This document shows, one piece after another, positions 12,957 to 58,936 of a stretch of DNA of 64,000 nucleotides; within the stretch, counting starts at the first letter, position 1; the number at the start of each line of letters is the position of its first letter. A model generated the notes under the pieces. The model ran no database searches. It worked only from the letters and a program-made list of their open reading frames with translations, and was not told where the DNA came from. The translations under genes and the position numbers were made by a program. This DNA comes from Blautia sp. (lineage in GTDB: Bacteria; Bacillota; Clostridia; Lachnospirales; Lachnospiraceae), in assembly GCA_023667395.1 (NCBI GenBank), contig JAMPAC010000001.1:206680-270679 (forward strand), written 5' to 3'.

Positions 12957-13922
12957 TCAGCTTTCCACGCCGATCTCGCCGCTTGCCTTATAGGGAGCGT
13001 ACCTGGGCGCGGATTTCAGGATCTCACGCTTCTCATTGCGGAAAGCCTGGGGACTGCATCCCATGATCTCGCGGAAAGTCCGGTTGAAACCGGAATGGGA
13101 CTGGAACCCTGTATCCAGCGCGATGGAAAGGATACTGTCCTCCGTGCTGATCAGGAAATAACACGCTTTCCGGATCCGGACGCCGCGCAGATACTGGAGC
13201 GGCGTCTGGCGGAACCCGCTGCGGAAATACGTGAGGAACTGCTTCCCGGACAACCCGCACAGCTGCGCCAGGAGCGCAACATCCGGCTCCCTGGCATATT
13301 CCCTGTCCATGTAGGATATGGCGGGGAACAGCCGGGCGCGAAGATTCTCCGGCCGACACTCGGCAGGACGCTCCGCACCGGAATCCCCGTAATTTTCCAG
13401 GTTCCAGCGGTAAAGCCGCACCAGCAGCGTCTCCAACAGCCCTGAGACCGTCTGGAGACAGTATTCCTCTTTCTGCATGATCGTCTTGATGATCAGACGG
13501 ATCAGCACCGCTTCCTCTTGAAAAGCGCTTGCCCTGAAAATCTTCGGGAAATCCGCATAACGATACCATAACATTTCCTCCGGCAGCCCCTTGGGGTAAA
13601 AAGGCGCCAGCGCCTCCTGGGGATTGAAAAAAAGATAGTGACAGCACACATCCGTATCCTCCTGGGGCGGGAAAAAGGAGGCATGGGTATAAAACGGGGG
13701 CAGAAAAAGAAAATCGCCCGCATCCACCTGCCTGTAAGTATTTTCCAGGTTCCACGTCATGGAGCCTTTCTCACATAACGCGACCTCAATACAGTTGTGG
13801 AAATGGATAAAGTCAACATGGTCGGAAATCTGAACCCCCTGCATCAAAAGCATGGGAAATCCCTGCGAAAATTCGTACTCACGGTATGTAATGGGGAGGG
13901 AAAGAAAATCTTTGGCAGTCAT
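12957..13922 (-). CDS. AraC-family transcriptional regulator
   Basis: 321 residues. The N-terminal cupin-like domain has FIHFHNCIEVALCEKG and GDFLFLPPFYTH. C-terminal HTH units are VALLAQLCGLSGKQFLTYF and ILSIALDTGFQSHSGFNRTF. Its ATG overlaps the stop of the upstream AAA-ATPase gene in an ATGA junction, so it is translated from the same mRNA. It converges with the dipeptidase gene, leaving about 49 bases between stops. It is the second AraC protein bracketing the 2629-12907 cluster, but its coupling to the ATPase gene leaves the target open. Confidence 0.9.
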   Translation of the reverse strand: MTAKDFLSLPITYREYEFSQGFPMLLMQGVQISDHVDFIHFHNCIEVALCEKGSMTWNLENTYRQVDAGDFLFLPPFYTHASFFPPQEDTDVCCHYLFFNPQEALAPFYPKGLPEEMLWYRYADFPKIFRASAFQEEAVLIRLIIKTIMQKEEYCLQTVSGLLETLLVRLYRWNLENYGDSGAERPAECRPENLRARLFPAISYMDREYAREPDVALLAQLCGLSGKQFLTYFRSGFRQTPLQYLRGVRIRKACYFLISTEDSILSIALDTGFQSHSGFNRTFREIMGCSPQAFRNEKREILKSAPRYAPYKASGEIGVES

Positions 13923-15520
13923 GGTAAGTCTCCTGCCCGGAAAGCATCGCGTGCCAGTTTTTCAATCACGCAGCTATGCCGCTTATTTTTATTATCTTTA
14001 TCGTAATTTATTCCCACCAACAGAACTTCTCCCACATAACCCTCCAATGCCTGGGTATAATTCCTGTCCCTGATCTGTTTGATCGCTGTATCAGCAGACT
14101 TGTCATACTTCAGTTCAACTACAAGCGCAGGCTTACCAGACAAGGGCAGAGGCAAAAACACAATATCTGCAAATCCCCGGCCTGTTGGCAATTCCCGAAT
14201 AAGGCGATAATCTTTTCTCGCGCTGTAGTATGCAAGGCCAATTGCACAACTTAAAGAATTTTCATCATTGTAGGTTAAAATCGAAGCCACCTCCGTATGG
14301 GCCCGATCCAACCCCTCCGCCACTTTTTCCCCATCACAGCGCAGGGTATCCTCCAACAACTTTTCCGATGCATTCAAAATACGCATGATCTCCGGCCATC
14401 CGCCCACGCTCATGGCATTTTCAAACTCTCCGATAATCTCCTTGTTGGGAACAAAGGCTTTCTTTGCCTCCGCATCATATCCCAGATATCCCAGATGAAT
14501 CAGCAGCGTCAACACATCGTCCTTGGTCTTGAATGTGCGCATATCATTCTGAAAACTGAGTGTATTAACCCTGATGCTTTCGCCACTCAACATCCGCACA
14601 ATATCTGAACGAAGCCCGTCAAAATCCATATCCATATAAATCTTTAATGCTTCATAAGTTTCGGTGGAAGTCCAATAATTGGAAAAATAACCGCATTTCA
14701 TTGCTGCCACCACCGACCTTGGATTATATACATGTTTAATTTTCCTAAAGCAATAACCATCATACCAACTACTAATCCCGAAAAAATCCATATTATATTT
14801 CTTACATAATTCCTTTACTTCATTTTCTGTAAATCCAGTATATTCCTCAAAATCAATCTGGTCTGTCATGGAATATTCCCAAAACATATTTAACGCCGAA
14901 TGCTGTCCGTATTTTTTAATGGGAAGTATCCCCGTCATATAAGCAAGCGCCACATACGGCTGGTCCTTTAAGAGATTGCGCAGGAAATCGAGATACTGCT
15001 TTTGAAGGTTTTCTGATTCCTGTCGCTCCCGCATGACACAATCCCACTCATCCAGCAGAAAAATAAACTTTTTTCCTGTTTTTGCATATATTCTTCGGAG
15101 CGCATCCGCAAGTCCTGTGTCCGGCTTTTTTATATAAATTCCATATTCTTCCACCAGTTCCTCAAGGACTTCCTGCTCCAGATATTCTGTCACGCCTTGA
15201 TCTTTCGCGCCGATCAGGAACTGCTGCATATTCAGGGAGATTACATCATATTGATTCAGATACTTCTCAAAAGTAGGATCATTTTCTATTCTTCGTCCTA
15301 CAAAAAGTTCCTGGGAATCACAGCCACGACTATAATAAGCCGCAAGCATATTCAGTGTCATAGATTTTCCAAAACGCCGCGGTCTGCTTACACAGATAAA
15401 TTTCTGATCGGTATTCATATATTTATTTGTATATGCGATCACTCCGGTTTTATCTACATAAATCTCTGATTGAATGGATTCTCTGAAACAATCATTTCTA
15501 GGGTTTAGATAAATTCCCAT
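13919..15520 (-). CDS. AAA-ATPase-like protein with C-terminal PD-(D/E)XK nuclease domain
   Basis: 533 residues. Walker A is SRPRRFGKSMTLNML near residue 50 and Walker B is FIFLLDEWD near 135. The C-terminal part carries the nuclease-fold core FADIVFLPLP then ALVVELKYDKS. This matches the architecture called AAA-ATPase_like plus PDDEXK_9, usually multicopy in Bacteroidetes and Clostridia. The biological role is not established; links to mobile or conflict functions have been suggested. The start follows GGAGGAGG. It is more AT-rich than its neighbours, consistent with transfer. Confidence 0.85.
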   Translation of the reverse strand: MGIYLNPRNDCFRESIQSEIYVDKTGVIAYTNKYMNTDQKFICVSRPRRFGKSMTLNMLAAYYSRGCDSQELFVGRRIENDPTFEKYLNQYDVISLNMQQFLIGAKDQGVTEYLEQEVLEELVEEYGIYIKKPDTGLADALRRIYAKTGKKFIFLLDEWDCVMRERQESENLQKQYLDFLRNLLKDQPYVALAYMTGILPIKKYGQHSALNMFWEYSMTDQIDFEEYTGFTENEVKELCKKYNMDFFGISSWYDGYCFRKIKHVYNPRSVVAAMKCGYFSNYWTSTETYEALKIYMDMDFDGLRSDIVRMLSGESIRVNTLSFQNDMRTFKTKDDVLTLLIHLGYLGYDAEAKKAFVPNKEIIGEFENAMSVGGWPEIMRILNASEKLLEDTLRCDGEKVAEGLDRAHTEVASILTYNDENSLSCAIGLAYYSARKDYRLIRELPTGRGFADIVFLPLPLSGKPALVVELKYDKSADTAIKQIRDRNYTQALEGYVGEVLLVGINYDKDNKNKRHSCVIEKLARDAFRAGDLP

Positions 15521-15544
15521 GCAATGCCTCCTCCACATCTATGA

Positions 15545-27497: not shown

Positions 27498-30400
27498 CTA
27501 ATCCACGCTCTTCAAGGATTCCGTCATACTGATCCTCTCCAGCTTGCCGTTCATCAGCCGGTTTACCAGCCACGCAAACAGGTATGTCAGTACCACGCTG
27601 TAGAGGTAACTGACCGGACGCACCCGGATATCGAAAGCGATCATATCCACCTGGATCTCATTTATCACAAACCAGTGAAGCAGGCGTCCCAGGGGCAGCC
27701 CCACCACGATCCCCATGGCTGCCAGCACCATATTCTCACGGAAAACATAGGACGCCGTTTCCCCCTTATGGAATCCCAGAACCTTGATCGTGGCGATCTC
27801 ACGGATGCGCTCCGTAATGTTGATATTAGTCAGATTATACAGCACGATAAACGCCAGCCCCGCCGCGCAGGCAATGACGAACACCACGATCAGGTCAAGG
27901 CTTTTCATCATGCTGGAAAACCGCTCCATGGTATCTGCATTCACGGACACGCTGGCCACATCCTCCCATTTCATCAACGCCGCCGCGACCAGGTGCACAT
28001 CCGCGTCCTCCGGAATATTGAGATAAAGATTCCTGTAACCAGCCTCCTCGCCTGTCTGCTCCCTGTAAGTTTCATCGTTGATATAGACATAATTATAGAT
28101 AAAATTCTGGTTGATTCCCGACACCCTTGCGGTGATGGTCTGCATATCCTCATTCTGGAGCGTGACGGTATCTCCCACGGCGATTCCGAAAACCCCTGCA
28201 ATCTTATTCGTGATCACCATTTCGCCCGCTTCGGGAAATGCCAGCGGTTCCCCGTCTGCGGTATGCAGATCCAGGAATGACGTCATATCTGTCTCTTTAT
28301 CAAATGCCAGCAGATTGACCGACTTTCTGCCACTTTCCGTCACCAGGTCATAGGTGGTCTCATAAACCGGCACATACTGCCCGCCGTCCGCACCGATGGC
28401 ATCCCTGACGATCTCTTTTGTTTCATCCAGCGTTCCCTCAGCGATATCCTCGGAAAATAATACGTCCAGGTCGTAAATCTGTATCTCACCAAACTGCTGC
28501 GTAGCCACATCCGCAATGGAATCCTTGATGCCAAACCCCGTCACCAGAAGCGCCGTACACCCGCTGATTCCCATTACCATCATGACCAGCCTCTTCCGGT
28601 AGCGGAAAATATTCCGTATGGACACCTTTCTCAGGAAACCCAGACGTTTCCAGATAAATGATACATATTCCAGGAATACTCTCTTTCCCGCCTTCGGCGA
28701 TTTCGGCCTCATCAGCTGCGCCGCCACCTCTTTCAGTTCCATGCGGCATGACAGCCATGTGGTGCCCACGGAACAGAGGATGGAAACAAACAGGGAAATG
28801 GCCGCAAGCTTCCAGTCAAACACATAGACCAACGTATCCACCCGGTACATGATACGGTATGCTGCCCAAAGAACCTGGGGAAACAACCAGGTTCCTCCCG
28901 CATAACCAATGATACAGCCGAGCACTGCAGCCGAACCGGAGTAGAACATATACTTGGACATGATGACCCTCTCGCTGTAGCCCAACGCCTTGAGCACACC
29001 GATCTGTGTCCTCTGTTCCTCCACCATACGGTTCATGGTGGTAATGCACACCAAGGCCGCCACCAGGAAAAAGAACACAGGGAAAATATTGGCGATTCCT
29101 TCCACGATAGTGGAATCATTTTCAAAACACGCATACCCTATATTCGTGTCACGACCAAGCAGATAGCTGTCAGGCGGCTCCAGATCCGCTATCTCCTGCT
29201 CCGCATCGTCAATCTCCCTCTGGGCATCTGCAATCTTCTCGTCAAACTCCCTCACGCCGTCTTCATATTCTGCCAGGCCGTCCTCATACTCCGCCTGCCC
29301 GTCCGCCAGTTCCTGCTCCTTTTCCGCGATCGTCCGCTCCGCATCCTCTATCTCTTTTCTGGCGTCGGCAAGCTGTTTCCTACCATCTTCAATCTGTTCC
29401 TTGGCTTCCTCCAGCGCCGCCCTGCCATCGGCAAGTTCCCTCTGGGCTTCTTCCAGCTGCTTCCTGCCGACCTCCAGTTCCCGCCAGCCCGCTTCGATCT
29501 GTTCCGCCCCCCTCAGCAGCTGCTGCTCATAAGCCGCAAGCGTGGACAATCCCTCCGTAATGGCGCTGCGCTGCTGCTCGATCTGTTCGAATCCTGCCCG
29601 GATCCCTGCCTCGCTTTCCAGGAGCATCTCCATCTGCCCGGTCAGTTCCTCAGGCACAGCGCTTTCGCCATATGCATCGATCATCTTCTGAAGATTCTCC
29701 CGCGCCAGAGCCAACATGGCTCCCTGAGACCGCAATTCCTCTTCCGCCTTGTCAAGTTCCTGCATACCAGCCGCCGCATCCGCCCCAAGAATCGCTTTCT
29801 GCTCCTCAAACTGCTTTCTCCCGGCCTCCAGTTCCCTGTCAGCCGCTGTCAGGTCTATACTGCCCTGACTCACTTCGTCAAAGCCTTTCCTTACTTCCTC
29901 CTCCCCATCCGCAAGTTCCCTCTCCTTATCCGCTATCTCCCTTTCACCGTCGGCAAGTTCCTTTTCCTTATCCGCCACGGTTTTTCGCGCGTCTTCTAAC
30001 TCCTTTCGGGCATCTGCCAGCTGCCTCTCCCCATCTTCCAGCTGTTCCCGTGCGTCTTCCAGTTCCTCCCGCGCATCCGCAAGTTCTTCCTCTGCGTCCG
30101 CTTTCTCCGTCTCAAATTCCTCTTTTGCATCCGCAAGTTCTTCCTCCGCATCCGCAAGAATCCTCTGATACCGCATGTCCGCAGCCTGGGAAGCACAATC
30201 CTCCCAGACGGCCTCTTTCTCCTCAATGAAATCCTTGTATGTATCACTGTACAGGGAAAACCCTTCCGCAAATTTGACATAGATCTCCGTATAATAATCC
30301 ACATCAAAGCCCTCATAGGGCAGATAGATAAAGCCGCTGACCTTGCCCGTCCCCAGGGAAGTATTTCCCCGCTCATACTGAATATAGAGAGGCGACTGTA

Positions 30401-30911
30401 CAATGCCTACAATGGTATATTCCCTGCGGGCAAAATGTTCCAGATCCTCCTCCGCGTTATTTTCGGACAGCAGCAATGCCTCCCCGATACTTTCTTCCGT
30501 AAAGACATTGGCATCCACCACGCACTCCTCGGCGTTCTCAGGCATTCTCCCTTTCAGAACCACCAGCCTGTTCAGTTCCTCCGTGATGCTGTGAACCTTT
30601 GCCACACTCTCATTCCCCGCAGCATCCTGAAAAATGATGTCAAAAGAGACCGCACCCTCCGCCCCCAGCACACCCTCCTGCTGCCTCAGATACGCTGCCT
30701 CCTCCTCTTCAAACCCCATGGTGGACAACAGCCGGAAATCGTAGAATTCCTGCTCTTCAAGGTAATTCCCCGTGGTCGTCACCATAGCGTCCCTGGTCAC
30801 CTTGAGACCTGCAAAAAAACCCACGCCTAACGCCACTATTGCAAGGATTGCAATAAATCGTCCGAAACTTTCTTTAATTTCCCGTAATGTCGATTTCCAG
30901 ATTGTTTTCAT
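27498..30911 (-). CDS. FtsX/MacB-type ABC permease with a very long coiled-coil insert
   Basis: 1137 residues. A first membrane helix at ~18-38 (FIAILAIVALGVGFFAGL) is followed by an extracellular domain, then ~340 residues (about 245-585) of Glu/Lys/Ala heptads built from variants of ELADARKELEDA. After that come three helices, another extracellular domain and three C-terminal helices, giving two FtsX domains. It partners with the ATPase at 30919. Such exporters act on lipids, peptides or cell-wall regulation. The coiled coil probably reaches through the cell wall. Specific function is unknown. Confidence 0.88.
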   Translation of the reverse strand: MKTIWKSTLREIKESFGRFIAILAIVALGVGFFAGLKVTRDAMVTTTGNYLEEQEFYDFRLLSTMGFEEEEAAYLRQQEGVLGAEGAVSFDIIFQDAAGNESVAKVHSITEELNRLVVLKGRMPENAEECVVDANVFTEESIGEALLLSENNAEEDLEHFARREYTIVGIVQSPLYIQYERGNTSLGTGKVSGFIYLPYEGFDVDYYTEIYVKFAEGFSLYSDTYKDFIEEKEAVWEDCASQAADMRYQRILADAEEELADAKEEFETEKADAEEELADAREELEDAREQLEDGERQLADARKELEDARKTVADKEKELADGEREIADKERELADGEEEVRKGFDEVSQGSIDLTAADRELEAGRKQFEEQKAILGADAAAGMQELDKAEEELRSQGAMLALARENLQKMIDAYGESAVPEELTGQMEMLLESEAGIRAGFEQIEQQRSAITEGLSTLAAYEQQLLRGAEQIEAGWRELEVGRKQLEEAQRELADGRAALEEAKEQIEDGRKQLADARKEIEDAERTIAEKEQELADGQAEYEDGLAEYEDGVREFDEKIADAQREIDDAEQEIADLEPPDSYLLGRDTNIGYACFENDSTIVEGIANIFPVFFFLVAALVCITTMNRMVEEQRTQIGVLKALGYSERVIMSKYMFYSGSAAVLGCIIGYAGGTWLFPQVLWAAYRIMYRVDTLVYVFDWKLAAISLFVSILCSVGTTWLSCRMELKEVAAQLMRPKSPKAGKRVFLEYVSFIWKRLGFLRKVSIRNIFRYRKRLVMMVMGISGCTALLVTGFGIKDSIADVATQQFGEIQIYDLDVLFSEDIAEGTLDETKEIVRDAIGADGGQYVPVYETTYDLVTESGRKSVNLLAFDKETDMTSFLDLHTADGEPLAFPEAGEMVITNKIAGVFGIAVGDTVTLQNEDMQTITARVSGINQNFIYNYVYINDETYREQTGEEAGYRNLYLNIPEDADVHLVAAALMKWEDVASVSVNADTMERFSSMMKSLDLIVVFVIACAAGLAFIVLYNLTNINITERIREIATIKVLGFHKGETASYVFRENMVLAAMGIVVGLPLGRLLHWFVINEIQVDMIAFDIRVRPVSYLYSVVLTYLFAWLVNRLMNGKLERISMTESLKSVD

Positions 30912-31667: not shown

Positions 31668-31692
31668 ACATATTTTCTGTTTGAAATTTATT

Positions 31693-31724
31693 AAAAAACA
31701 GGAAACTCTTGAAAAGTTTCCTGC
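31693..31724 (-). terminator. Intrinsic terminator of the HEPN-like/ATPase unit
   Basis: On the minus strand CAGGAAACT, a seven-base loop and AGTTTCCTG form a perfect 9-bp stem followed by TTTTTT. It lies 25 bases past the stop of the 892-residue protein. Confidence 0.85.
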
Positions 31725-31748
31725 TTCATTTAACAAACATTTACACAC

Positions 31749-34427
31749 TTATTTGGTCACCAATAATGAAACCAACTTAACCCCGCCGCGTCTGGATTTA
31801 TTGTAGCCCAAGGCATAACGTATACTTTCCGAAATATAATATTCGCCATCCGCTTCTTTAAGATAACCAAAACGTTCCAGATTCCGTTTGTCTTCGATTC
31901 CCAATTTGTCCATCACATTATCCTGCAAAGGCACTTGTTTATCTTTCTGCTCTATTTCCTGTAATTTTCGAAAACTGCTCTGCAACTGATAAATTTCCTT
32001 TTCGACTTCGCCAAACTTTTCCCTTGAGCACTCTCGGATTGCCTGTTTCATATCGTCCGGAAACAAGAAACGATCCTGAAAAGCAAGCAGCTTATCATTC
32101 AATTCATATCCCGCAGCATACTCCATAAACCGCACAATATCTCTTGCCTGCAGCTGTCCATTAAAATCAGACAATGAAGCCAGAACCCACCGTACAGTGT
32201 ATGCCTGATTGGAACTGTTTTGCCCCATTTTAACTCCCCATACTTTGGCAAGATCCTCCTCAATCATATCCCTTCCAGCCTCTTCTACCAGTATGGGGTT
32301 ATCTCTCCAGTGCACTCCGCTTACATTACCTGCCCGATCAGCTAGTTTTAATGCTAATTGTAAAGCATCTTTCTGAGTCCAATTCAATTCATACCGCACA
32401 TATTGACTGCGGAACTGTTCAAAATTCGTACCTATGGATAACTCGGCAATGTCCTTTCTCAGAAAAACGATAATCCCCACATTATTCCCCTGCTGTTCTG
32501 TCAGGAAATTGATAGTTCCCCTACACAGTGTTCTGATACCACATTTTTGCACAATATCTTTTTCAAAATCTTCAAAGATATTTTCCAGGCCATCAAATAA
32601 AAATATAATCTTGCGATTCTGTTTTTTCAGATTTTCCTGCAATTCCTCCCATGAAAATATTTTCTCAAACATTCCCAAAATCAATTTCTGCCAAAATGTG
32701 TGCCACCCTTGCTCATCCAGCCTTTGCTTAATTGCGTTTTTGACGAGGTTGGTATTTTCCATCAGAAAATCACTGCCAAATTTCATCTGTGAAATATCTT
32801 TGTTGCATTTTTCTCTGCACAAAGTCAATATCTCACCAATTCCTGTTCTATCTTCACTGCACAAAACCGGACAAATCAGTGTCTCTGTTCCTTGCTCTGA
32901 TTTTTCCCCTATCATTGCCAGAAATTTCTCCCATGTCTGCGCTTTTAACATTTGCAAATAAAGATATGTCTTTCCCGAACCTTTTGCCCCCAGAATATTT
33001 ATCCTAGGAATATCTTCTGAAAAATCTCCAAGCTGACGGACTGCCCTGGTAGTTAGCATATTAGATATATCCCCGCCTTCAGCCGCAATGCTTTTTTCAC
33101 AAATCTCATGCAATGCTTTGCGGAATTTCCTAATCTGCTGTCTGTCATATTCCTTAACCGGCATATTTTGACTTTCAAAAATTTTAGCGACAATTCCGCT
33201 ATCTTTCAGAGGTTTTGTCGTATTTCTTGCTAAGTCCAGACTTTTGCATATCTGCTCTAAATCACCAAGATGAATTAAAGCTTCGTTATACGCCAGTTCT
33301 TCTATTCTGTCTGCCATCTGGATATCCCCTGCCACATCATCCCCATCTGATATTCCATCCTCCTGTAAAAGCAGATGATATGCATTATCTCTATCTTCTC
33401 CCCAGAACACATCATTCTTCACCATTGTAAAGAATATTTTCTTCACAGCAGAATCATTTCCCTTTTGCTTTCTTAATTCTCTGAGAACCAGGTTCGTTCC
33501 ACTGACAGACTGCAGGGAAGTTGAACTGATCAAATATTTGTCTACCCTTGGATCAAATAAAAAAGGGGACGAATATTCGCTGAACCCCGCTCTCAAATCT
33601 ACAAATACCGCATCAACATCAAGGCATTTCCCAATCTGTGCAAGCGTATCAGCAATAATATATTTATTAGTCTCACCTGCCATAATACGTTCCGGATTGG
33701 AATAAACATCCAACATCTGATTCTCCTCACGATATGTCGGTAGAAAGTACTGTGCAAGTTCCAATTTCTCTCCTTGAAATACAAGAGATGAACGTCCTAC
33801 AAGGCGGCTGATGTCTTCTACAATATCTTTTTTGTTTCCCTTAGCCCCAATAATCGCCAGAACATCCAGATAGCTGATTGTATAATGATTATTTTTCCGC
33901 CCCAGCCATGTTAATCCCGGCGCCTCCGTGTCTCCATCCACAATCAAAACCTTTTTGCCGCTTCCATAAAGATTCATCATCTCCCGAACAGCTGCAATTA
34001 AAGTAAGCGTTCTTCCAACTCCACCTTTATAAGAATGAAATGCAACTACCGGAATGTCCAACTCATCCAATTCTGGAGGTTCTACACTGTCCGCATCTGA
34101 CACATAGGAAAAATCCTTAAACAAGGGAAACGGTTTTACGATCCTTTCATTTGTTGCTTCCTCTATATAAACCTGCATCGTTGTCTGCGTAACCGGAATT
34201 TGTATCATGTTGGCCTCTGTGTCAAAATATTGTTTCAGAAGCCCTTTCAGATATCTTTTTGCATCCTCTTGTATCTCCGCAGACATCGATTTAACATATA
34301 TGACTGCCTCCGTGCTGAAAACATCAACCTTTATCCACTGTGTCGGCCAATCATTCCTGTGCAGCAGTAATCTTCTTTCAATATCATGCCATGTATATAG
34401 CACCAATGCCTCATAGTCCATCTGCAT
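31749..34427 (-). CDS. Double P-loop NTPase: KGGVGR-type ParA-like domain plus AAA-type domain
   Basis: 892 residues. Residues 1-120 are an uncharacterised alpha/beta region. A ParA/MinD-like domain follows, with the variant P-loop HSYKGGVGRT (131-140) and VDGDTEAPGL (163-172). After a helical linker there is a second P-loop ILGAKGSGKT (478-487) and Walker B IIFLFDGLEN (607-616), then a helical tail of STAND/AAA character and a C-terminal winged-helix-like end. ParA-like proteins with KGGVGR occur in bacterial conflict systems. Its start follows the HEPN-like gene by two bases behind AGGAGG. The pair is AT-rich against the neighbourhood and carries its own promoter and terminator. Function is inferred, not known. 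Confidence 0.75.
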   Translation of the reverse strand: MQMDYEALVLYTWHDIERRLLLHRNDWPTQWIKVDVFSTEAVIYVKSMSAEIQEDAKRYLKGLLKQYFDTEANMIQIPVTQTTMQVYIEEATNERIVKPFPLFKDFSYVSDADSVEPPELDELDIPVVAFHSYKGGVGRTLTLIAAVREMMNLYGSGKKVLIVDGDTEAPGLTWLGRKNNHYTISYLDVLAIIGAKGNKKDIVEDISRLVGRSSLVFQGEKLELAQYFLPTYREENQMLDVYSNPERIMAGETNKYIIADTLAQIGKCLDVDAVFVDLRAGFSEYSSPFLFDPRVDKYLISSTSLQSVSGTNLVLRELRKQKGNDSAVKKIFFTMVKNDVFWGEDRDNAYHLLLQEDGISDGDDVAGDIQMADRIEELAYNEALIHLGDLEQICKSLDLARNTTKPLKDSGIVAKIFESQNMPVKEYDRQQIRKFRKALHEICEKSIAAEGGDISNMLTTRAVRQLGDFSEDIPRINILGAKGSGKTYLYLQMLKAQTWEKFLAMIGEKSEQGTETLICPVLCSEDRTGIGEILTLCREKCNKDISQMKFGSDFLMENTNLVKNAIKQRLDEQGWHTFWQKLILGMFEKIFSWEELQENLKKQNRKIIFLFDGLENIFEDFEKDIVQKCGIRTLCRGTINFLTEQQGNNVGIIVFLRKDIAELSIGTNFEQFRSQYVRYELNWTQKDALQLALKLADRAGNVSGVHWRDNPILVEEAGRDMIEEDLAKVWGVKMGQNSSNQAYTVRWVLASLSDFNGQLQARDIVRFMEYAAGYELNDKLLAFQDRFLFPDDMKQAIRECSREKFGEVEKEIYQLQSSFRKLQEIEQKDKQVPLQDNVMDKLGIEDKRNLERFGYLKEADGEYYISESIRYALGYNKSRRGGVKLVSLLVTK

Positions 34428-34429
34428 TT

Positions 34430-34849
34430 CTACCTCCTCGCCTCACAATCATGTAACAGTGATAATGTTTGCTTTAAATTATTTTCAACAATCTGTTCCA
34501 AGGCTTCTCCCTCTCTGCAGCGAATACCATATCTCCACATCTCATGGTATCGGGAAGCATCTATTGTTTCGCCATCCAATGCACTGTGCAAATCAGGAAA
34601 CATATTACATTTCTGTTCTAATCCTATCCTTTTCAGCAGCTTCTGTAAATCATGTTTTAAATTCCTGTCATCGTTTGACAGTTTTGTATAAATGAAATAA
34701 TTTTCATTCACTAATAGCTGGTATTTTACCCCACATTCAACTGCATAAAAAAGCAATAATCTGCGAGCGCAATTATCCTCGATTTTTCCCGCCACTGCTT
34801 CCTGTCTGTTTCTGCTCCTCAATAATTCAGTTGAACGAACGTCCAGCAT
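34430..34849 (-). CDS. Small HEPN-like helical protein
   Basis: 139 residues, all-helical by appearance. LLLFYAVECGVKYQLL, KHDLQKLLKRIGL and ASRYHEMWRYGI match the order and character of HEPN-domain helices. The usual HEPN RNase motif (Arg, four to six residues, His) is not clearly present; RNLKH has only three residues between. It may therefore be a non-catalytic or diverged HEPN. RBS AGAGGA precedes the ATG. It is translationally coupled to the large NTPase, so the two probably work as a pair (effector or sensor plus ATPase). Confidence 0.6.
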   Translation of the reverse strand: MLDVRSTELLRSRNRQEAVAGKIEDNCARRLLLFYAVECGVKYQLLVNENYFIYTKLSNDDRNLKHDLQKLLKRIGLEQKCNMFPDLHSALDGETIDASRYHEMWRYGIRCREGEALEQIVENNLKQTLSLLHDCEARR

Positions 34850-34916: not shown

Positions 34917-35702
34917 TCACAACCGCCCTGCCTGCATGGCAAGCACATAATCCGCCGTATTCTCCCCGGCTTCCCGCCCCACTATATTATAGGCTTCCTG
35001 AAAATAATGGAAGTCATCCTTCATCAAACCCCGCTCTTTCATCTTTGCAAGGGATTCAGACACCATCACCACATTTTCATTCGTCCGGGCGATTTCATCC
35101 TGCGCCGCCATGATCTCACTGTAATCCTGCCCCCCGGAACCGTTATAATGTCCTATCCTGACCAGAAAACACTTCTCAATCCCTGCCTGCAGCATATGAT
35201 CCAGCATACGTTCAAACTCCGCGCGGTACTGCTCCCCCGGCTTGGCGATATCGCCGTCCGACTCCCCCTGGCACCAGAGCATGAATTTATGCCTGACAGA
35301 AAAATGATTATCCTGCAGAAAGTCTACTGCCGCTTCCAGCCTTGCTGTGGCGTCTTGTAAAAATATGCCGCCCGACTGCCACTGGTCGATCCTGCTGCCG
35401 CCCTTTGACGCCGATACTCCCACAATGGGAACGCCGGTCTTTATATAATAGACATTGGCAAAAGCCGTCACCATGGAGCCCGTCTTCATATGACCGTCAT
35501 CAATGCCGCCCGGACGGTTTTCAAAGCGCCCGAATGGTTCTTCCATCACATATAATCTATCCGGATCCGATACCGCCCGGTATTCGTATCCCGCGCCATC
35601 CAGCAATCTGGGCGCTCCCTGGCAATGCTCCTGTGTCACAATGCCCCGTCCCGCCATATTGGACTGGCCCATGAACAGAAATAAATCAATTGTTTTTCCC
35701 AT
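34917..35702 (-). CDS. SASA-family carbohydrate acetylesterase (sialate O-acetylesterase-like)
   Basis: 261 residues, SGNH-type hydrolase. Ser14 sits in LFMGQSNMAGRG. The oxyanion-site segment is WCQGESDGD and the DxxH pair is in KDDFHYFQEAYN. The family removes acetyl groups from sialic acids or plant polysaccharides. No signal peptide is present, so it is cytoplasmic. Its start overlaps the end of the ApbE gene by 17 bases with AGGAAAGGA in front. No sialic acid catabolic genes are nearby, so plant acetyl-xylan-type substrates are equally possible. Confidence 0.85.
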   Translation of the reverse strand: MGKTIDLFLFMGQSNMAGRGIVTQEHCQGAPRLLDGAGYEYRAVSDPDRLYVMEEPFGRFENRPGGIDDGHMKTGSMVTAFANVYYIKTGVPIVGVSASKGGSRIDQWQSGGIFLQDATARLEAAVDFLQDNHFSVRHKFMLWCQGESDGDIAKPGEQYRAEFERMLDHMLQAGIEKCFLVRIGHYNGSGGQDYSEIMAAQDEIARTNENVVMVSESLAKMKERGLMKDDFHYFQEAYNIVGREAGENTADYVLAMQAGRL

Positions 35703-36777
35703 TCCTTTCCTGAACCTCCACCACATTCACAGTCATATCGCCATATTCACTTTGCAGGGAAAACCTGGCTTCCATGCCTTCCGTGATATAAATATTCCCA
35801 TCTTCCATAACCAGGATCATATCAAAGTCCCCCTGCTGCCTCCAGTAATCTTCCGCCCTCTCCCTGCCCATCACAAAAAGAGCGGTGGAAAGAGCGTCGC
35901 ACCGTTTTCCTTCTCCGGCGATAACCGTCACCGAAGCCACCCCGTTATCCACGGGATATCCTGTGGCGGGATCCATGATATGCCCATACCGTTTGCCGTC
36001 CTCGCCGATAAAGTACCGCTCATAACTTCCCGATGTGACCACCGCCGCGTCCGCCACCCGGATCACCCCCAGCATCCCGTCGGAAAAAGGACTTTTCAGT
36101 CCCACCCGCCAGTAACTGCCGTCGGGCTTGGCGCCGATGGCCTGAATATTTCCGCCGATATCCAGCAGGGCAGAGGAAACGCCGTTCTCCTGTAACGCCT
36201 GCGCTGCTTCGTCGCCTGCGAATCCCTTTCCCACGGCTCCCAGATCCAGCATGGTACCGGCATCCAGGGAAAGTTCCCCCTTTTCCAGGCATACCCGGTC
36301 ATATCCCACATATTCCAGAAGTTCCCCGATCTCCGTTTGGGAGGGTACGCGGTTCTCCCCCGTGGTAAATCCCCATGCCATGAGAACCGGATAGATTGTG
36401 GGTTCCAGGGCTCCGCCTGTGTCTTCCGCCATTTCAAGGGCAAAGGCGACCAGCTTTTCCGTCTCCCCGCTCACGGCCACAGGCTGCCCATTGCTGTGGT
36501 TGACCGCATAAATATCGCTGCCCGCATCCGTGACAGACCACAGGCTTTCCAGTTCCGCGATCCGATTCTCCGCCTCCAGGAGGGCATGTTCCGCATTAGC
36601 TCCGTAGGCGGTAAAGGTCATATAGGTGTCCATGGCAAAAAAGGACTCCGAATACGCTTTCCTGTCGCTGCCGGACAGGGCGGAGCAGGCGGTAAGACTG
36701 ACAAATATGGGAAACGTCAGAAATATCGTTTTTATAATCTGTTTTTTGTTCTTCCAGTCAGCCAACCCTTTTCCCAT
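35686..36777 (-). CDS. apbE: FAD:protein FMN transferase lipoprotein
   Basis: 363 residues from ATG 36777. A signal peptide (IIKTIFLTFPIFVSLTAC) with lipobox LTAC marks a lipoprotein. Flavin-transferase motifs are MDTYMTF, EPTIYPVLMAWGF, LDLGAVGKGFAGDEAA, SGSYERYF and HIMDPATGYP. It attaches FMN to a Thr in exported flavoproteins such as RnfG/NqrC or extracellular reductases. An upstream start at 36870 lies before the predicted promoter start site and is rejected. The ribosome site at 36777 is poor, so the exact start is uncertain. Confidence 0.88.
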   Translation of the reverse strand: MGKGLADWKNKKQIIKTIFLTFPIFVSLTACSALSGSDRKAYSESFFAMDTYMTFTAYGANAEHALLEAENRIAELESLWSVTDAGSDIYAVNHSNGQPVAVSGETEKLVAFALEMAEDTGGALEPTIYPVLMAWGFTTGENRVPSQTEIGELLEYVGYDRVCLEKGELSLDAGTMLDLGAVGKGFAGDEAAQALQENGVSSALLDIGGNIQAIGAKPDGSYWRVGLKSPFSDGMLGVIRVADAAVVTSGSYERYFIGEDGKRYGHIMDPATGYPVDNGVASVTVIAGEGKRCDALSTALFVMGRERAEDYWRQQGDFDMILVMEDGNIYITEGMEARFSLQSEYGDMTVNVVEVQERNGKNN

Positions 36778-36847
36778 ACCGGAACACCAGCTTTCTGTAT
36801 CCTTTACGCGTCTTTGTCCGTCGCCTGCGGGAATTTTTTCAATATCT

Positions 36848-36876
36848 ATTTTACCGCAGCCGCTGTTCAATGTCTA
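36848..36876 (-). promoter_or_regulatory. Putative promoter of apbE
   Basis: On the minus strand TAGACA (36871-36876), a 17-base spacer and TAAAAT (36848-36853). The expected start site falls near 36841, about 65 bases before the apbE ATG. Confidence 0.55.
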
Positions 36877-37263: not shown

Positions 37264-38628
37264 TCATGATTTCTTTCCATTTTTCAGTTCTTCTACAATC
37301 TCATTATAATACTTTTTGTTCAGACGGTAGAAAAACAATACAGCTGCCGTTACAAGCCAAAGAACTCCCGGAACGGTTGTGAATGCATGCTTCATTACCG
37401 CAAGCACGGCATCATTCTGCTGCTGATTCGCCACATATCCGAATTTTCCAAGCATTCCGGCTAATAATGCAGTTCCGATTGCCATCCCGACTTTGTTGCC
37501 AAGGGAAATAAACGCATATTGAAAACCATCATTCCTTAAGCCTGTCTTCCACTGCCCATACTCTGCACAATCCGGAATAATCGCATAAATTGCCGTGTTA
37601 AACCCGGAGAAAAAGAACTGTGTTAACCCGGAAAAAATATAGAAGGCCACAGGATTCTCTTTTACACTGAACAAATACAGCACAAGCATGGAACAGCCTG
37701 TCAGCAATGCAAAGATCGATGCCGCACGTCCTTTATTGTTTGTCTTTCTAAACACCGGCTGAAAGCATGCCGCTCCTATGATTGACGGGATAATAATGCA
37801 CATGGAATAAGTTGTGTAATAAGAGGCATTCCCTTCAACATAGGTAAAATAGTAAAGGATATCCGCGTTTCTCCCATACAGGGTAAAGCCAAACAGTATC
37901 TGTCCAGCCAGCGCCAGCAGATATGGCTGGTTCTGCAAAACAGCCTTTAACTGTACTTTTATGGAAATTTTCTCCTTTTCCGGCATCTGCACAGTCTCTT
38001 TTGTCTTTGCAAAGCAGAAGAAATGACATGCCGCAAAAATACAGCCATAGATAACCGCTACCGTGAGATAACCCGTTTTGGGACTGTCTTTCCCGAATGC
38101 TGTGACAAGCGGGACTGTAATAATGTTGATAATCCCAATGGCAATCATGGCCGCTACAGAACGGGAAGTATTGATTTTCGCCCTCTCGTCAATACTCTGT
38201 GTCATTGCACCGCACAGTGTGCCATATGGAATATTTACACAGGTATAGCCTAATACCAGCAGACAATATGTAATGATCATATAAATAATCTTTGCTGTAT
38301 TTGACCAGTCCGGATGCGCCCAGAAACTCAGTACAAGGATAATTGCCGTAATCGGCGCAGCGAACAGAAGCCACGGACGATACCGTCCCCATCTTGATTT
38401 TGTCTTATCCGTAAGCCCCCCGATGATCGGATCATTGATGGCATCCCAGAACCGGGAAAAGAGCATCAGTCCCGAAACGGCTGCCATGCTGATCCCAAAC
38501 ACATCCGTATAAAATATCATCAGAAAATTGCTGACAAACATCCAGCTGAAATTACATCCCACATCCCCAAAGCCATACGCAATTTTACTGATTAAAGGTA
38601 CTCTTTCATCGTTGTTTTTGCTTCCCAT
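37264..38628 (-). CDS. GPH-family sugar:cation symporter
   Basis: 454 residues with 12 membrane helices. Typical glycoside-pentoside-hexuronide elements are YGFGDVGCNFSWMFVSNFLMIFYTDVFGI, WDAINDPIIGGLTDKTKSRWGRYRPWLL and the C-terminal DCAEYGQWKTGLRNDGFQYAF. The start follows GGGAGG at five bases. It should import a glycoside, pentoside, uronide or polyol with Na+ or H+. It follows the dehydrogenase gene by 31 bases in the same operon. Confidence 0.92.
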   Translation of the reverse strand: MGSKNNDERVPLISKIAYGFGDVGCNFSWMFVSNFLMIFYTDVFGISMAAVSGLMLFSRFWDAINDPIIGGLTDKTKSRWGRYRPWLLFAAPITAIILVLSFWAHPDWSNTAKIIYMIITYCLLVLGYTCVNIPYGTLCGAMTQSIDERAKINTSRSVAAMIAIGIINIITVPLVTAFGKDSPKTGYLTVAVIYGCIFAACHFFCFAKTKETVQMPEKEKISIKVQLKAVLQNQPYLLALAGQILFGFTLYGRNADILYYFTYVEGNASYYTTYSMCIIIPSIIGAACFQPVFRKTNNKGRAASIFALLTGCSMLVLYLFSVKENPVAFYIFSGLTQFFFSGFNTAIYAIIPDCAEYGQWKTGLRNDGFQYAFISLGNKVGMAIGTALLAGMLGKFGYVANQQQNDAVLAVMKHAFTTVPGVLWLVTAAVLFFYRLNKKYYNEIVEELKNGKKS

Positions 38629-38659
38629 ACAAACCTCCCTGTAACCGTAATCCATTATC

Positions 38660-39685
38660 CTACTCCTGCACATTGATGATAACTTTCATCGTGTTTTCCC
38701 GGTTATCATCAATATACTGATAAGCTTTCAGATAATCCCGGAATGCAAATGTCCTGGAAATTAATGGTTTCAGCAAAACCTTCCCCTCGTTTACAAGACG
38801 AATTCCATCCAGATAATCATCATGCCGGTACATCATGGTGCTTTTTATATCCAGTTCATGGTCATTGGCAACCGCAAGGTCAACCTCGGCCATTCCCGCA
38901 AAGACAGCGACCAGGACAATAACACTTCCTTTCCTTGCATATTTAATAGCCTGCCCCATTGTGACATTGTTTCCCGCGCAGTCATAGATAACGTCTGCCT
39001 TATCCGGTCCAAACGCCTCTAACATTGCCTCCCCGAAATCTTTATGCAACGTATTGACACATACATCGATGCCGCACTCTTTTGCCTTTTCCAAGCGAAG
39101 ATCGCTGACGTCCGTAATCATCACCTTTTCCGCCCCCATTCCCTTGGCTGTCTGCGCCACCAGATTCCCAATCGGTCCTGCACCAATCACAACAATATTC
39201 ATACCTGTGACATCGCCGACCTGTTTTACGCCATGCACAGCTACCGCAAGCGGCTCAATCATTGCGCCTTCCTCGAAGGACATTTCCTCCGGGATCGGTG
39301 TTACCTTGGATGCGTCTACGGCAAAAAATTCAGACGCGGTTCCTGTTGTCTGGAATCCCATTACTTTCAGTTCCTCACAGAGATTGTACTTTCCATGGCG
39401 GCAAGGATAACATTTGCCGCAATATACCTGCGGCTCGATCGTAACCTTCTGCCCAATATGAAACCCTTCTACATTCGCCCCAATTTCCGTAATCTCCCCT
39501 GAAACCTCATGTCCCTGGGTTACCGGATAAGAAGTAAAAGGATGCTTTCCATGATACACATGAATATCCGAACCACATATGCCGATATTCATGATTTTTA
39601 CCATTACCTGATCATCCTTTAACCGTGGAAGCGGCACCTCGTTAAAAATGATTTCTCCCGGCTTTGTCATGACCTGCTGTAACAT
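38660..39685 (-). CDS. Zinc-dependent medium-chain alcohol/polyol dehydrogenase
   Basis: 341 residues. Catalytic zinc ligands are Cys37 (GICGSDIH) and the His-Glu in QGHEVSGEI. Structural zinc cysteines are in VYCGKCYPCRHGKYNLC. The NAD site is VVIGAGPIGNL. It is closest to sorbitol, L-iditol, L-idonate-5 or galactitol-phosphate dehydrogenases. With the GPH symporter and the ROK regulator it forms a small sugar-acid or polyol utilisation unit. The exact substrate is not determinable here. Confidence 0.9.
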   Translation of the reverse strand: MLQQVMTKPGEIIFNEVPLPRLKDDQVMVKIMNIGICGSDIHVYHGKHPFTSYPVTQGHEVSGEITEIGANVEGFHIGQKVTIEPQVYCGKCYPCRHGKYNLCEELKVMGFQTTGTASEFFAVDASKVTPIPEEMSFEEGAMIEPLAVAVHGVKQVGDVTGMNIVVIGAGPIGNLVAQTAKGMGAEKVMITDVSDLRLEKAKECGIDVCVNTLHKDFGEAMLEAFGPDKADVIYDCAGNNVTMGQAIKYARKGSVIVLVAVFAGMAEVDLAVANDHELDIKSTMMYRHDDYLDGIRLVNEGKVLLKPLISRTFAFRDYLKAYQYIDDNRENTMKVIINVQE

Positions 39686-39705
39686 AATGATTTACCTCTC
39701 TTTCT

Positions 39706-39738
39706 TTTTATTAACTCTTTTATTAATTATTTTATTAA
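39706..39738. promoter_or_regulatory. Three TTTTATTAA direct repeats, 12-bp period (candidate ROK operator)
   Basis: TTTTATTAA occurs at 39706-39714, 39718-39726 and 39730-39738, exactly 12 bases apart. It lies between the -10 box and the start of the dehydrogenase gene. A-tract/T-tract TTTATTAA elements are common binding sites of ROK/XylR repressors, and a ROK protein is encoded next door. Confidence 0.6.
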
Positions 39739-39747
39739 AGCAATTAC

Positions 39748-39776
39748 ATTATTGCACTGACACTTCACAATGTCAA
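39748..39776 (-). promoter_or_regulatory. Promoter of the dehydrogenase/symporter operon
   Basis: On the minus strand a consensus TTGACA (39771-39776), a 17-base spacer and AATAAT (39748-39753). The direct repeats lie directly downstream, so a bound repressor would block elongation or initiation. Confidence 0.75.
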
Positions 39777-39837
39777 TACATTCTTCAAATTTCACCTTTT
39801 TTCACAAAGTTCCATTTCTGTTTTTGTTAAAATCGCA

Positions 39838-39881
39838 CAAAAAAACAGCCATTACATCACTTACCCGAATGTAATAGCTGT
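39838..39881 (-). terminator. Terminator of the ROK regulator gene
   Basis: On the minus strand ACAGCTATTACAT pairs with ATGTAATGGCTGT (one mismatch), followed by a run of seven or more T. It separates the regulator from the dehydrogenase promoter. Confidence 0.8.
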
Positions 39882-39899
39882 CTCTTTTCACTTTTCAAT

Positions 39900-40991
39900 C
39901 TATATATTTTCTATAAATCTCCAGAAAAACTGCTTCGCCACCCCCACTGCCGATGCCTCTTTCCGATAAGAACAGTTTTTCAAATAACTCAGATCACTGT
40001 CAAACAAATTATATTGAAAGATTTTCTGCCCCAGTTCAAACATATAATCAGGCAGATAACCTCCCACATCTCCTCCTAAAATAATATCCGTATCATAAGA
40101 CATCCGCAGATTAGATATTAATATCGCCAGATGTTCCAGGTATTCTTCCCATACTTTACCTGCCTCTGCATCCGTATGTATTTTTTTCATAAAATCTTCT
40201 AATTTTTCTTTCCCATCATGTGTCAGTACACTTGCCGCACAATAAGCGTCTGCACATCCAGATTTTCCACAATAACATTTTCTGCCGCCCGGCACCAGGA
40301 GCATATGTCCAAATTCGCCCGCCTTACGGTTCTGCCCGGTAAATAACTGACCGTCAATGCAGACGGCCCCGCCAAGCGTGTTATTTAAAGACAGGTAAAT
40401 GGAATTTCTTAATTTCTGCGGGTTTTCCGCCAACATTGCCGCATTTGCATCGTTTTCATAGTACACCGGCATTGCCGCAATCTGCTCAATCATTTTCAGG
40501 CTGTAATTTTCCAGATTTAACGCATGGGATTTCACAAGCACCTTTTCCCTTTGGTTAATGATTCCAGGCATGGAAATGCCAAGCCCCAGTATTTTATCCG
40601 ACGGAATTTCCGCCTCATAAAATTCTTGTAGCTTCTCTGACAATTTCGTATAGTATGTTATACTGGTGTCAAATTTCATCCGAATGCGTTCCTGCTTCAG
40701 GATTTCCCCGCACATATTAACCAGAACCATCCCAAGATGATTGGGTGTAATATCCATCCCCAAAGCATACCGATAATCACATGACAGGCCAATTTCCACT
40801 GCCTTTCGCCCTCCGGTTGATTCCCTTTCGCCTTTTTCTACGATCACTCCGTCCTCTATCAGTTCATTTACATTGGATAATATGGTGGGCATACTGATAT
40901 TCAGCTGTTTTGCTAATTCTACTTTGGAAGTATTCCCCTGATTTAACATATAGTTAAGTATTTTATACTTAGGTTTATTTATATGCAGCAT
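39900..40991 (-). CDS. ROK-family transcriptional regulator (XylR/NagC-like)
   Basis: 363 residues. The N-terminal winged helix is KYKILNYMLNQGNTSKVELAKQLNISMPTILSNVNEL. The ROK sugar-binding part has GMDITPNHLGMVLVNM, ENDANAAMLAE and the zinc motif CYCGKSGCADAYC. The start MLHINKPK follows GGAGGAG; an upstream ATG includes that site itself. It probably represses the downstream dehydrogenase/symporter operon via the TTTTATTAA repeats until a sugar ligand binds. Confidence 0.92.
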   Translation of the reverse strand: MLHINKPKYKILNYMLNQGNTSKVELAKQLNISMPTILSNVNELIEDGVIVEKGERESTGGRKAVEIGLSCDYRYALGMDITPNHLGMVLVNMCGEILKQERIRMKFDTSITYYTKLSEKLQEFYEAEIPSDKILGLGISMPGIINQREKVLVKSHALNLENYSLKMIEQIAAMPVYYENDANAAMLAENPQKLRNSIYLSLNNTLGGAVCIDGQLFTGQNRKAGEFGHMLLVPGGRKCYCGKSGCADAYCAASVLTHDGKEKLEDFMKKIHTDAEAGKVWEEYLEHLAILISNLRMSYDTDIILGGDVGGYLPDYMFELGQKIFQYNLFDSDLSYLKNCSYRKEASAVGVAKQFFWRFIENI

Positions 40992-41030
40992 AATCTCCTC
41001 CATCTACACAAAACGCTTATAGCCCACTTA

Positions 41031-57538: not shown

Positions 57539-58936
57539 TTATACAATTTTTTCCAAAATATCTTTATATGGAACCAACGTAACGTTGCCCATCTTGTCGG
57601 CAGCCTCCACACAGCCCTTTGTGAATCCCTCTTTTGCAAATAAGTACAACCAGATTTTATTGTAATGGAATGCCCGGCTTCGCTGTATCAACATTTCCAA
57701 AACACCCTTATCAACCTTTTCATTTGTCCATTTACACTCGCCAAACAGTGCTGTATCCCTGTCCTGTTCCCCCATAATATCTATCTCTGTTTGACTCCGG
57801 GTAAACGGATCCGTCCCCCACCAACGTCCCAGACTCCTGAACTCTACGGGAGATTCTCCCGTTAACAGCAGTTTCCAAAGGTACTGTTTGCATATCTCCT
57901 CAAATACTTTTCCCATATAGTCCGACAAATATGGTTCTATCCGCCTGTAAGCCAGGTCGGCAGCGCCGCGGCAGATAATGGACTTATTCTCCGGTACAAA
58001 CCGGTACCAGAATCGAAACATATTATCAGCAATACTGTAAATCGACTTCCGGGATGCCTTTTCGCCATATGGCGTTTCCCTTTGGATCAGTCCCAATGCA
58101 ATCAGATTTTTTAAATAAGCGGCACAAACGCTGGTTTCCTCTCCAACCTTTGTAGAAATTTCCGCCATACGCGAAGCGCCTGTTGCAACAGCCGTGATAA
58201 TTGCATTATAAAGCGCAGGTTCCCTTACTTCCTGCTTTAGCAGGTTTTCCGGCTCTTCAAAAAGCGAGGAAATCGGGTTTAAAAACGTAGCCTTAATATT
58301 ATCCTCAATACTCAGCCTGTCATCCATCTGCAGCAGATACTGCGGCGTCCCTCCCGCCATGCCATAAATCAACGCTTTCTCTTCACCGGAAAAATTCCTG
58401 GAATATCGGCACGTATCCGCAAAATCAAAAGGCAGTATCTTCATCTGTGCTGTCCGTCTGCCATAGAGCGGGGCTTTGTATGCCAATACATGATCTTCCA
58501 TATATGACATGGAAGATCCGCAAAGAATCAGCATTAATTTAGAGCGGTCCCTGTATCGGTCGATCAATAGCTGTAAAGTGGAGGCAAAGCTTTTTGACGA
58601 ACGGGCCACATACGGATACTCGTCGATCACCAGAACCAGACGGTTTCTTTCCGCCAGCTTAAAAACATATTCCAGTGCTGCCTGAAAGGAAACAAATGCT
58701 GTCTCCGCCGGAACACCCATTCCGAATTCCATGATATTTTTGCTGAAATTTTCCAGATTCTGTTTGGCATTGCTCTCTACACCCATAAAATAAATTGCCT
58801 GTTTATCTCTGATAAACTGGCTGATAAGCGCTGTTTTTCCCACACGACGGCGTCCATATATAACTGCGAACTCAAATTTATCAGATGCGGATAATTGTTC
58901 AAGGGATTTCAATTCGTGCTCTCTTCCAATAAACAT
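57539..58936 (-). CDS. Archaeal-type ATPase with DUF234 nuclease-like C-terminus
   Basis: 465 residues. AAA/STAND P-loop YGRRRVGKTALISQF near residue 30, Walker B VLVIDEYPYVAR near 105, GGTPQYLLQ and an arginine sensor region. A winged helix follows (SRMAEISTKVGEETSVCAAYLKNL). The C-terminal DUF234 domain has a PD-(D/E)XK-like core (EIDIMGEQD...FGECKW). The family is widespread in archaea and Clostridia and its role is not established. AT-rich; likely accessory. Confidence 0.88.
   Translation of the reverse strand: MFIGREHELKSLEQLSASDKFEFAVIYGRRRVGKTALISQFIRDKQAIYFMGVESNAKQNLENFSKNIMEFGMGVPAETAFVSFQAALEYVFKLAERNRLVLVIDEYPYVARSSKSFASTLQLLIDRYRDRSKLMLILCGSSMSYMEDHVLAYKAPLYGRRTAQMKILPFDFADTCRYSRNFSGEEKALIYGMAGGTPQYLLQMDDRLSIEDNIKATFLNPISSLFEEPENLLKQEVREPALYNAIITAVATGASRMAEISTKVGEETSVCAAYLKNLIALGLIQRETPYGEKASRKSIYSIADNMFRFWYRFVPENKSIICRGAADLAYRRIEPYLSDYMGKVFEEICKQYLWKLLLTGESPVEFRSLGRWWGTDPFTRSQTEIDIMGEQDRDTALFGECKWTNEKVDKGVLEMLIQRSRAFHYNKIWLYLFAKEGFTKGCVEAADKMGNVTLVPYKDILEKIV

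Follow-up and report, generated by a model that had tools for sequence, protein, structure and literature searches.

A candidate anti-phage cassette in Blautia: a fused two-gene form of PDC-M28 with a probable HEPN-type small protein and a double NTPase

Within a 64,000-nucleotide stretch of a Blautia sp. genome (contig JAMPAC010000001.1, positions 206,680 to 270,679; hereafter the window), two adjacent genes on the minus strand encode a 139-residue protein, most likely of HEPN type, and an 892-residue protein with two nucleoside triphosphatase (NTPase) domains. The two open reading frames (ORFs) lie 2 bases apart, in agreement with the original prediction, which had read them as a coupled pair forming a candidate conflict system. 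Their GC content (38.6% for the small gene and 40.4% for the large gene, versus 52.5%–54.3% in the neighbours at 27498–30911, 34917–35726 and 35686–36870) likewise agrees with the AT-richness claimed for them; a second AT-rich stretch (37264–41003, GC 41.0%–46.5%) is located 2.4 kb from the pair, which is not the sole AT-rich region. Among the relatives described below, the GC content of the pair is under that of its own flanks in all 44 loci with enough flank, with a mean difference of 10.3 points. The terminator that had been proposed was found at the end of the operon (Table 1). The proposed promoter was not borne out: no consensus match precedes the small gene, and the number of promoter-like matches in the region does not exceed chance (8 versus 9.3 expected). 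In close relatives, the ratio of nonsynonymous to synonymous substitutions (dN/dS) is about 0.05–0.25 for both genes where dS is estimable, and purifying selection acts on both. The window copy is surrounded by ordinary genes, and no prophage was noticed there, without any search aimed at prophages. In an empty-site test, the neighbouring esterase had orthologues in other genomes, and the three fetched surroundings were non-syntenic, so that the insertion ends were not shown.

Table 1. Coordinates of the gene pair and of its features in the window
Feature	Position	Strand	Remarks
Small gene, 139 residues	34430..34849	-	ORF; HEPN-like, PDC-M28A type, predicted effector/toxin
Conserved HEPN-like helix motif LFYAVECGVK, residues 33-42	34724..34753	-	L33, Y35, E38, G40, K42 invariant 49/49
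His66	34652..34654	-	Invariant 49/49
Arg106-Tyr107 (WRYG)	34529..34534	-	Invariant 49/49
Large gene, 892 residues	31749..34427	-	ORF; N-terminal domain + KGGVGR (ParA-like) NTPase + Sll1717/ORC-like NTPase
N-terminal domain, residues 1-124, motif YTWxDIE	34056..34427	-	No known relative found
First NTPase, residues ~125-320, KGGVGR-motif variant of ParA/MinD fold	33468..34055	-	NCBIfam NF047398
Variant Walker A HSYKGGVGRTL	34005..34037	-	HSYKGGVGRT = residues 131-140; kept 56/56 except R139, 55/56
Second NTPase region, residues ~430-820, Sll1717 / ORC-CDC6-like AAA+	31968..33140	-	NF047389, PDC-M28C, hhalign
Second Walker A GAKGSGKT, residues 480-487	32967..32990	-	G480, G483, G485, K486, T487 invariant 56/56
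Intrinsic terminator of the operon	31686..31726	-	Hairpin -15.6 kcal/mol, z = -5.28, then six U

The large protein was aligned with 55 homologues, taking single ORFs of at least 820 residues only (56 rows). Its first NTPase scores 137.8 bits against the NCBIfam model AAA_KGGVGR (NF047398), over the curated cut-off of 90, and the single deviation in its Walker A motif is R139Q in one row. The second NTPase reaches 62.5 bits (E=3.9e-17) against ATPase_Sll1717 (NF047389), under the curated cut-off of 75; judged by this profile, the second domain is a clear relative of Sll1717, not a member by the cut-off rule. One wider relative just passes the Pfam ORC-CDC6-like model (27.3 bits versus a cut-off of 27), and a wider relative, L117, just passes nSTAND3 (27.6 versus 27.2). 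With respect to STAND ATPases, the window protein itself scores 13.9 bits against Pfam NACHT, under the cut-off of 26.7. The C-terminus of the second domain reads like a winged helix. The second ATPase is present in all of the aligned proteins, and its P-loop tolerates some changes at positions 481, 482 and 484. Furthermore, the lysine of each P-loop and the aspartate of each Walker B motif are retained across the alignment, and the two P-loops recognised in the original prediction are conserved. Profile-library scans of the large protein detected no effector domain with enzymatic activity, nuclease or otherwise, over cut-off.

The two genes travel as one unit. A genome-collection scan with motifs of the large protein, of which the best 80 of 86 relatives were kept, yielded 79 loci; after exclusion of 13 loci (L093–L105) that match over only about 45–100 residues at the P-loop, 66 were left. 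In 62 of these, a homologue or fragment of the small gene is located directly upstream of the large gene on the same strand, ending at most 336 bases away. Of the remaining four loci, one lies at the edge of a contig; the other three are damaged, and two of these still show remnants of the small gene. A family draw of 299 genomes, including that of the window, contained the small protein in seven genomes and the large protein in the same seven, and each of the nine small-protein matches sits beside a large one, leaving no orphan; since five of the seven positives were already known from the genome-collection scan, this draw serves as a test for orphans and is not an entirely fresh sample. Partner distances are correlated at r=0.956 over 47 loci, versus at most 0.27 in 1000 partner shuffles. 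The earlier suggestion that the two genes make one system, for which co-occurrence had been named as one of two tests, passed that test.

Profile comparison allows a name to be given to the pair, which the original prediction had described as a system it could not name. The window large protein matches the PADLOC models PDC-M28B (E=3.5e-10) and then PDC-M28C (E=7.5e-8), in that order, the PDC-M28B match covering a 70-residue stretch at the first P-loop. At E up to 0.001, PDC-M28B is matched by 56 and PDC-M28C by 55 of the 56 aligned proteins. Among wider relatives, L113 and L116 encode components A, B and C as three consecutive genes, and on a Calothrix plasmid a gene annotated by its depositors as HEPN is followed by two more genes that are in the B and C positions by position. 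Fused two-gene forms also occur elsewhere, in L117 and on a Nostoc plasmid. In hhalign comparisons, the window family is aligned to the fused forms at 99.9% over 739 columns, to the unfused B at 98.7% over 275 columns and to the unfused C at 98.1% over 289 columns. As judged from these profiles, the pair is the fused (B+C) two-gene form of the PADLOC candidate PDC-M28, with component A weakly matched by some relatives of the small protein. That PADLOC expects separate genes for B and C is deduced from its separate models and from L113 and L116, not from PADLOC's rules. The PDC-M28A model found no match in the genomes of six distant loci, and none in the controls of that search either, which makes this negative uninformative. 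Three actinobacterial PDC-M28C matches were found. According to the available text of PMC12988326, which mainly discusses single-gene candidates, PDCs were found by guilt-by-embedding and are largely unvalidated.

For the N-terminal domain of the large protein, called uncharacterised in the original prediction, a 40-row profile found no convincing match among solved structures (best E=0.12), and the domain could not be aligned to the N-termini of the wider M28 proteins. A BolA-like identity was rejected for the window, where the 40-row family profile yielded no BolA and the N-termini were without alignment. In L117, the N-terminus (5999–6310) resembles BolA (Pfam BolA E=0.0035, under cut-off; best PDB E=0.0031); of its ten PDB matches, four carry the name BolA, and E is at least 0.19 for all nine below the best. 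N-terminal domains may be swapped between branches, to judge from these sequences. A search of phage and plasmid records with the window protein returned one Nostoc plasmid and one fragment in Microcystis phage Mic1. In this fragment (phage gene Mic1_05, L107 4031–4651; 206 residues), similarity is confined to the middle of the second NTPase (29.8% identity, E=1e-13), with no P-loop visible by eye; it looks like a remnant or possibly a decoy. KGGVGR-like ATPases were also seen with other partners. On a Rhizobium plasmid (L180 2739–6280), a KGGTGR-type ATPase gene directly follows a gene that we read as TIR; on a Massilia plasmid (L182 2434–4854), a KGGTGR/KGGVGR-type ATPase gene directly follows an annotated MqsA-type antitoxin gene; and a Sinorhizobium match of this ATPase domain is an annotated TIR protein. 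These arrangements suggest that the partners of KGGVGR/KGGTGR-type ATPases are exchangeable.

The small protein was aligned in 49 rows, taking single ORFs of at least 130 residues only, and shares the family pattern LxYxVECGLK. The canonical HEPN RNase motif Rx4-6H is unconserved: a His stands 5–7 residues after R106 in 2 of the 49 proteins, and Rx4-6H-like spacing is found somewhere in 33 of them at varying positions. The window protein itself has no match to Pfam HEPN (PF05168), none in NCBIfam and none in PADLOC at E up to 1, and further direct family searches with it were equally fruitless. At the same lax limit of E up to 1, PDC-M28A is matched by 14 of the 49 relatives (best E=2.8e-4), and the next-best PADLOC family has 3 members. 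Five wider M28A-type partners were scanned, of which those of Nostoc (22.1 bits), L116 (38.3) and L117 (36.9) exceed the Pfam HEPN cut-off of 22, and those of L115 (14.8) and L113 do not. In hhalign, the small-protein family is linked to the M28A-type partners at 91.4% over only 25 columns around the VECGLK motif, and for these partners and an independent set of HEPN proteins the value is 84.6%. The direct comparison of the family with the HEPN set gives a weak 13.6%, versus at most 0.9% in 60 column-permuted controls. With this reserve, the small protein appears to be of HEPN type; the label is applied because three of the five wider relatives match Pfam HEPN, not because the window protein itself does. 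The HEPN-like nature put forward originally is upheld in so far as profile links run through relatives, and not as regards a match of the window protein of its own.

Analysis of the surroundings indicates that the pair moves. Upstream as well as downstream, the 62 nearest ORFs fall into 57 clusters; these neighbours are mechanical calls of at least 100 residues, some surely spurious, and many read as ordinary genes, such as spmA, truA and glmS (names read from sequence). The presence of the pair in the family genomes is patchy, at 7 of 299. The gene tree, in which some long branches are of unsure placement, contains Lachnospiraceae, other Clostridia, two Bacilli genera, Treponema, a Bacteroidales bacterium and two actinobacteria. 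One genome (G059) holds two intact copies of different branches together with a decayed third. Judged from these patterns, the pair is a self-contained travelling cassette. The decayed copy of G059 is located at L024 8377–11055 (G059:C25), apparently the same locus as L087. In four loci (L041, L048, L053 and L071), the nearest upstream neighbour is a gene that we read as spmA, and in several loci spmA pieces of about 70–125 residues lie on the other or on both sides (downstream flanks of L042, L046, L053, L062 and L071). It looks as if the cassette repeatedly enters spmA, leaving duplicated pieces. An AT-rich gene in the window (13919–15538, minus strand, GC 41.9%), coding for a 539-residue protein that begins MGIYLNPRN and that we take to be an AAA-ATPase/PD-(D/E)XK protein, is 44%–50% identical to genes near the cassette in L027, L046, L062 and L087; its less similar relatives lie near another three loci. 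A further isolated low-GC NTPase gene (57539–58936, minus strand, GC 44.5%), encoding a 465-residue ATPase, GREHELKSL...YGRRRVGKTALI, lies among GC-richer neighbours.

Damaged copies bear on which gene is harmful. In five loci on separate tree branches (L037, L040, L042, L061 and L062), the small gene is damaged by frameshift or N-terminal loss beside an intact large ORF. In the tally of the 66 loci, 47 have both genes intact, L074 is also counted as intact (its small protein covers profile positions 9–136), five carry lesions in the small gene only, and eight are damaged in both genes, among them L082 as a borderline case; L059, in which the large ORF also lacks its N-terminus, and L033, L077, L078 and L083 at contig edges were excluded. 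Within these loci, a full small ORF beside a broken large one occurs only in L077, at a contig end. Two further cases run the opposite way: L082, in which a small ORF without its first 29 profile positions lies beside a broken large gene, and Escherichia coli 2018-01-1CC (L187 8665–11336), in which the small gene is intact and the large gene is split by a frameshift. Given that the small gene makes up 13.6% of the coding length, five lesions out of five would fall in it by even chance with a probability of 4.6e-5, or 2.4e-4 counting the E. coli case and 7.6e-4 counting L082 too; these values presume equal detectability, and loci in which the large gene is completely lost could have escaped a scan that relied on its motifs. 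From this pattern, the small protein may be the harmful part.

The same data bear on an alternative in which the large protein is the effector, for example by clamping invading DNA. The small HEPN-like protein would then serve as an adaptor or sensor that binds nucleic acids without catalysis, in a system that is defensive rather than toxin-antitoxin-like. Such a division of roles would suit the unconserved RNase motif, the strong conservation of both NTPases, the non-catalytic roles that PMC3710099 allows for HEPN proteins, and the small gene retained beside a broken large one in E. coli 2018-01-1CC and, borderline, in L082. However, no enzymatic effector domain in the large protein is over cut-off, the small gene alone is damaged in five loci despite being the far smaller target, and a KGGTGR-type ATPase elsewhere follows a gene read as TIR, which would suit an effector encoded by a replaceable gene at the upstream position. 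We consider this alternative unlikely.

Relatives of the pair were also located in phage-related elements. A scan of viral contigs with the small protein retrieved one relative, on a P2-like prophage contig with the order terminase, portal Q, small gene, large gene and gpA (names read from sequence); the corresponding scans with large proteins gave no new relative, one of them recovering its own source only. In E. coli, the pair is present in 11 of 5,426 genomes, two of which are records of one strain, and is at least 99% identical in all. In all four loci opened among these 11, the arrangement is that of a P4-like satellite: tRNA-Leu is followed by the integrase gene, then by the pair with its small gene first, and then by psu, which an IS21-type element precedes in one locus. 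Against profiles of the window family itself, the proteins of the E. coli pair (WP_016245208 and WP_016245209) score 669.8 bits (large, positions 2–875 of 876) and 69.4 bits (small), and are therefore good proxies. In Rousset et al. 2022 (PMC9122126), the gpA–gpQ locus of P2-like phages (section 10) and the int–psu locus of P4 (section 8) are described as defence hotspots. On the Nostoc plasmid, the nearest annotated upstream gene of the pair is hsdR. Altogether, the location of the relatives favours a role in defence, and the positions in the P2 and P4 hotspots strengthen the earlier reading of a conflict system. Among the neighbours in the 66 loci, a PADLOC scan at E up to 1e-5 covered 120 of the 124 nearest (the four of at least 900 residues being excluded) and hit 21 families in 24 member-family pairs, a figure with no background rate for comparison; at most 24 of the 120 hit any PADLOC family, and no conserved defence neighbours emerged.

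Location also bears on two alternatives that need no phage defence. A partition or maintenance system, in which a ParA-like ATPase and its small partner stabilise prophages, satellites or plasmids, would account for the ParA-type fold of the first NTPase and for the relatives on plasmids; moreover, PMC9122126 reports a putative system for plasmid partitioning at the gpA–gpQ locus in about one in four P2-like phages. It fits poorly with a partner that is HEPN-type by profile links and not ParB-like, with a second ATPase in every aligned large protein, with copies beside very varied genes at unrelated sites, and with P4-like satellites next to tRNA-Leu that also carry the pair. In addition, no centromere-like repeat array was seen near the pair, only short two-copy repeats. 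We regard partition as the least probable of the explanations considered. Toxin-antitoxin addiction alone, with no role against phages, is the function proposed for the MAE_18760-type dyad of HEPN and ParA/Soj. The present pair would share with that dyad a two-gene operon of HEPN and ParA-like ATPase (PMC3710099), and the lesions of the small gene, the patchy distribution and the varied sites are in keeping with such a function. Against it, the order of the genes puts the small (toxin) gene first, and the P2 and P4 defence-hotspot positions point to inter-phage conflict. The large protein, with its two ATPases, is also far larger than a typical antitoxin. Simple addiction is therefore held to be improbable.

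Taken together, these comparisons lead us to favour, with moderate confidence, an anti-phage cassette of the abortive-infection type, a fused form of PDC-M28 in which a HEPN effector would be restrained and triggered by a double-NTPase sensor. From its ParA-like fold, ATP-driven dimerisation and association with DNA would be expected of the first NTPase. In the putative model, the large protein acts as both sensor and restraint. Initially, in the uninfected cell, it would keep the HEPN protein inactive. Upon infection, its ORC/STAND-like AAA+ part may bind either invading DNA or a product of the phage, with the ParA-like part possibly switching between ATP-dependent assemblies, and the HEPN protein would be released or activated. 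Afterwards, the HEPN protein would halt growth by binding RNA or cutting it at a non-canonical site, for which His66 and Arg106-Tyr107 are candidates. Finally, with growth stopped, the phage would fail to spread.

Several observations weigh against this favoured model of a HEPN effector under a double-NTPase sensor. On the side of the small protein, these are the unconserved RNase motif, the window protein's want of a Pfam HEPN match, the shortness of the link to the M28A-type partners and the weakness of the direct link to the HEPN set. On the side of function, they are the two copies with lesions of the opposite kind, the lack of conserved defence neighbours, and the report, in the available part of PMC12409345, that two other PDC candidates showed no defence in one native host. 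The literature searched also contained no mention that we could find of KGGVGR, PDC-M28, Sll1717 or the E. coli accessions. According to PMC3710099, toxicity is still possible in HEPN proteins that lack the RNase motif. A bolder form of the model, possible and in our view doubtful, would see here a new class of immune switch, in which a ParA-type DNA-surfing ATPase and an ORC/STAND-type AAA+ sensor are joined in one protein and carry a HEPN partner without RNase motif; that partner would kill or arrest the cell either through another active site, made up of the invariant His and the Arg-Tyr pair, or by blocking RNA with no cleavage.

In summary, this analysis gives the database candidate PDC-M28 a defined fused architecture and provides a concrete hypothesis on which of its genes is harmful. 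A homologue on a P4-like satellite of E. coli is available, testable in a laboratory strain. If the proposed model is true, bacterial immunity would count ParA-type ATPases, best known from the segregation of DNA and plasmids, among its switches, and what HEPN proteins do when they lack the RNase motif could be tested directly.

The pair was compared with the closest known systems. It resembles PDC-M28 in that components B and C are matched and the gene order is that of the three-gene loci L113 and L116; it differs in that B and C are here one protein of 892 residues with an N-terminal domain of its own. With the systems of the P2 gpA–gpQ and P4 int–psu hotspots it shares position, homologous pairs sitting in both loci, whereas the hotspot systems described in the available text of PMC9122126 include no ParA-type ATPase with a HEPN protein. 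The nearest published idea found, by analogy, is the dyad of a HEPN protein (MAE_18760) and a ParA/Soj-like ATPase, predicted to be a toxin-antitoxin system by Anantharaman et al. 2013 (PMC3710099), beyond which the literature searched for HEPN with ParA or Soj offered nothing. In both cases, a small HEPN gene is paired with a ParA-type ATPase gene, and a HEPN effector with an ATPase as its restraint is predicted. Unlike the present family, the MAE_18760 HEPN family is listed there as keeping the RNase motif. A further distinction from that dyad is that three of the five wider partners of the present family match PF05168, and that the ATPase bears a second, Sll1717/ORC-like NTPase.

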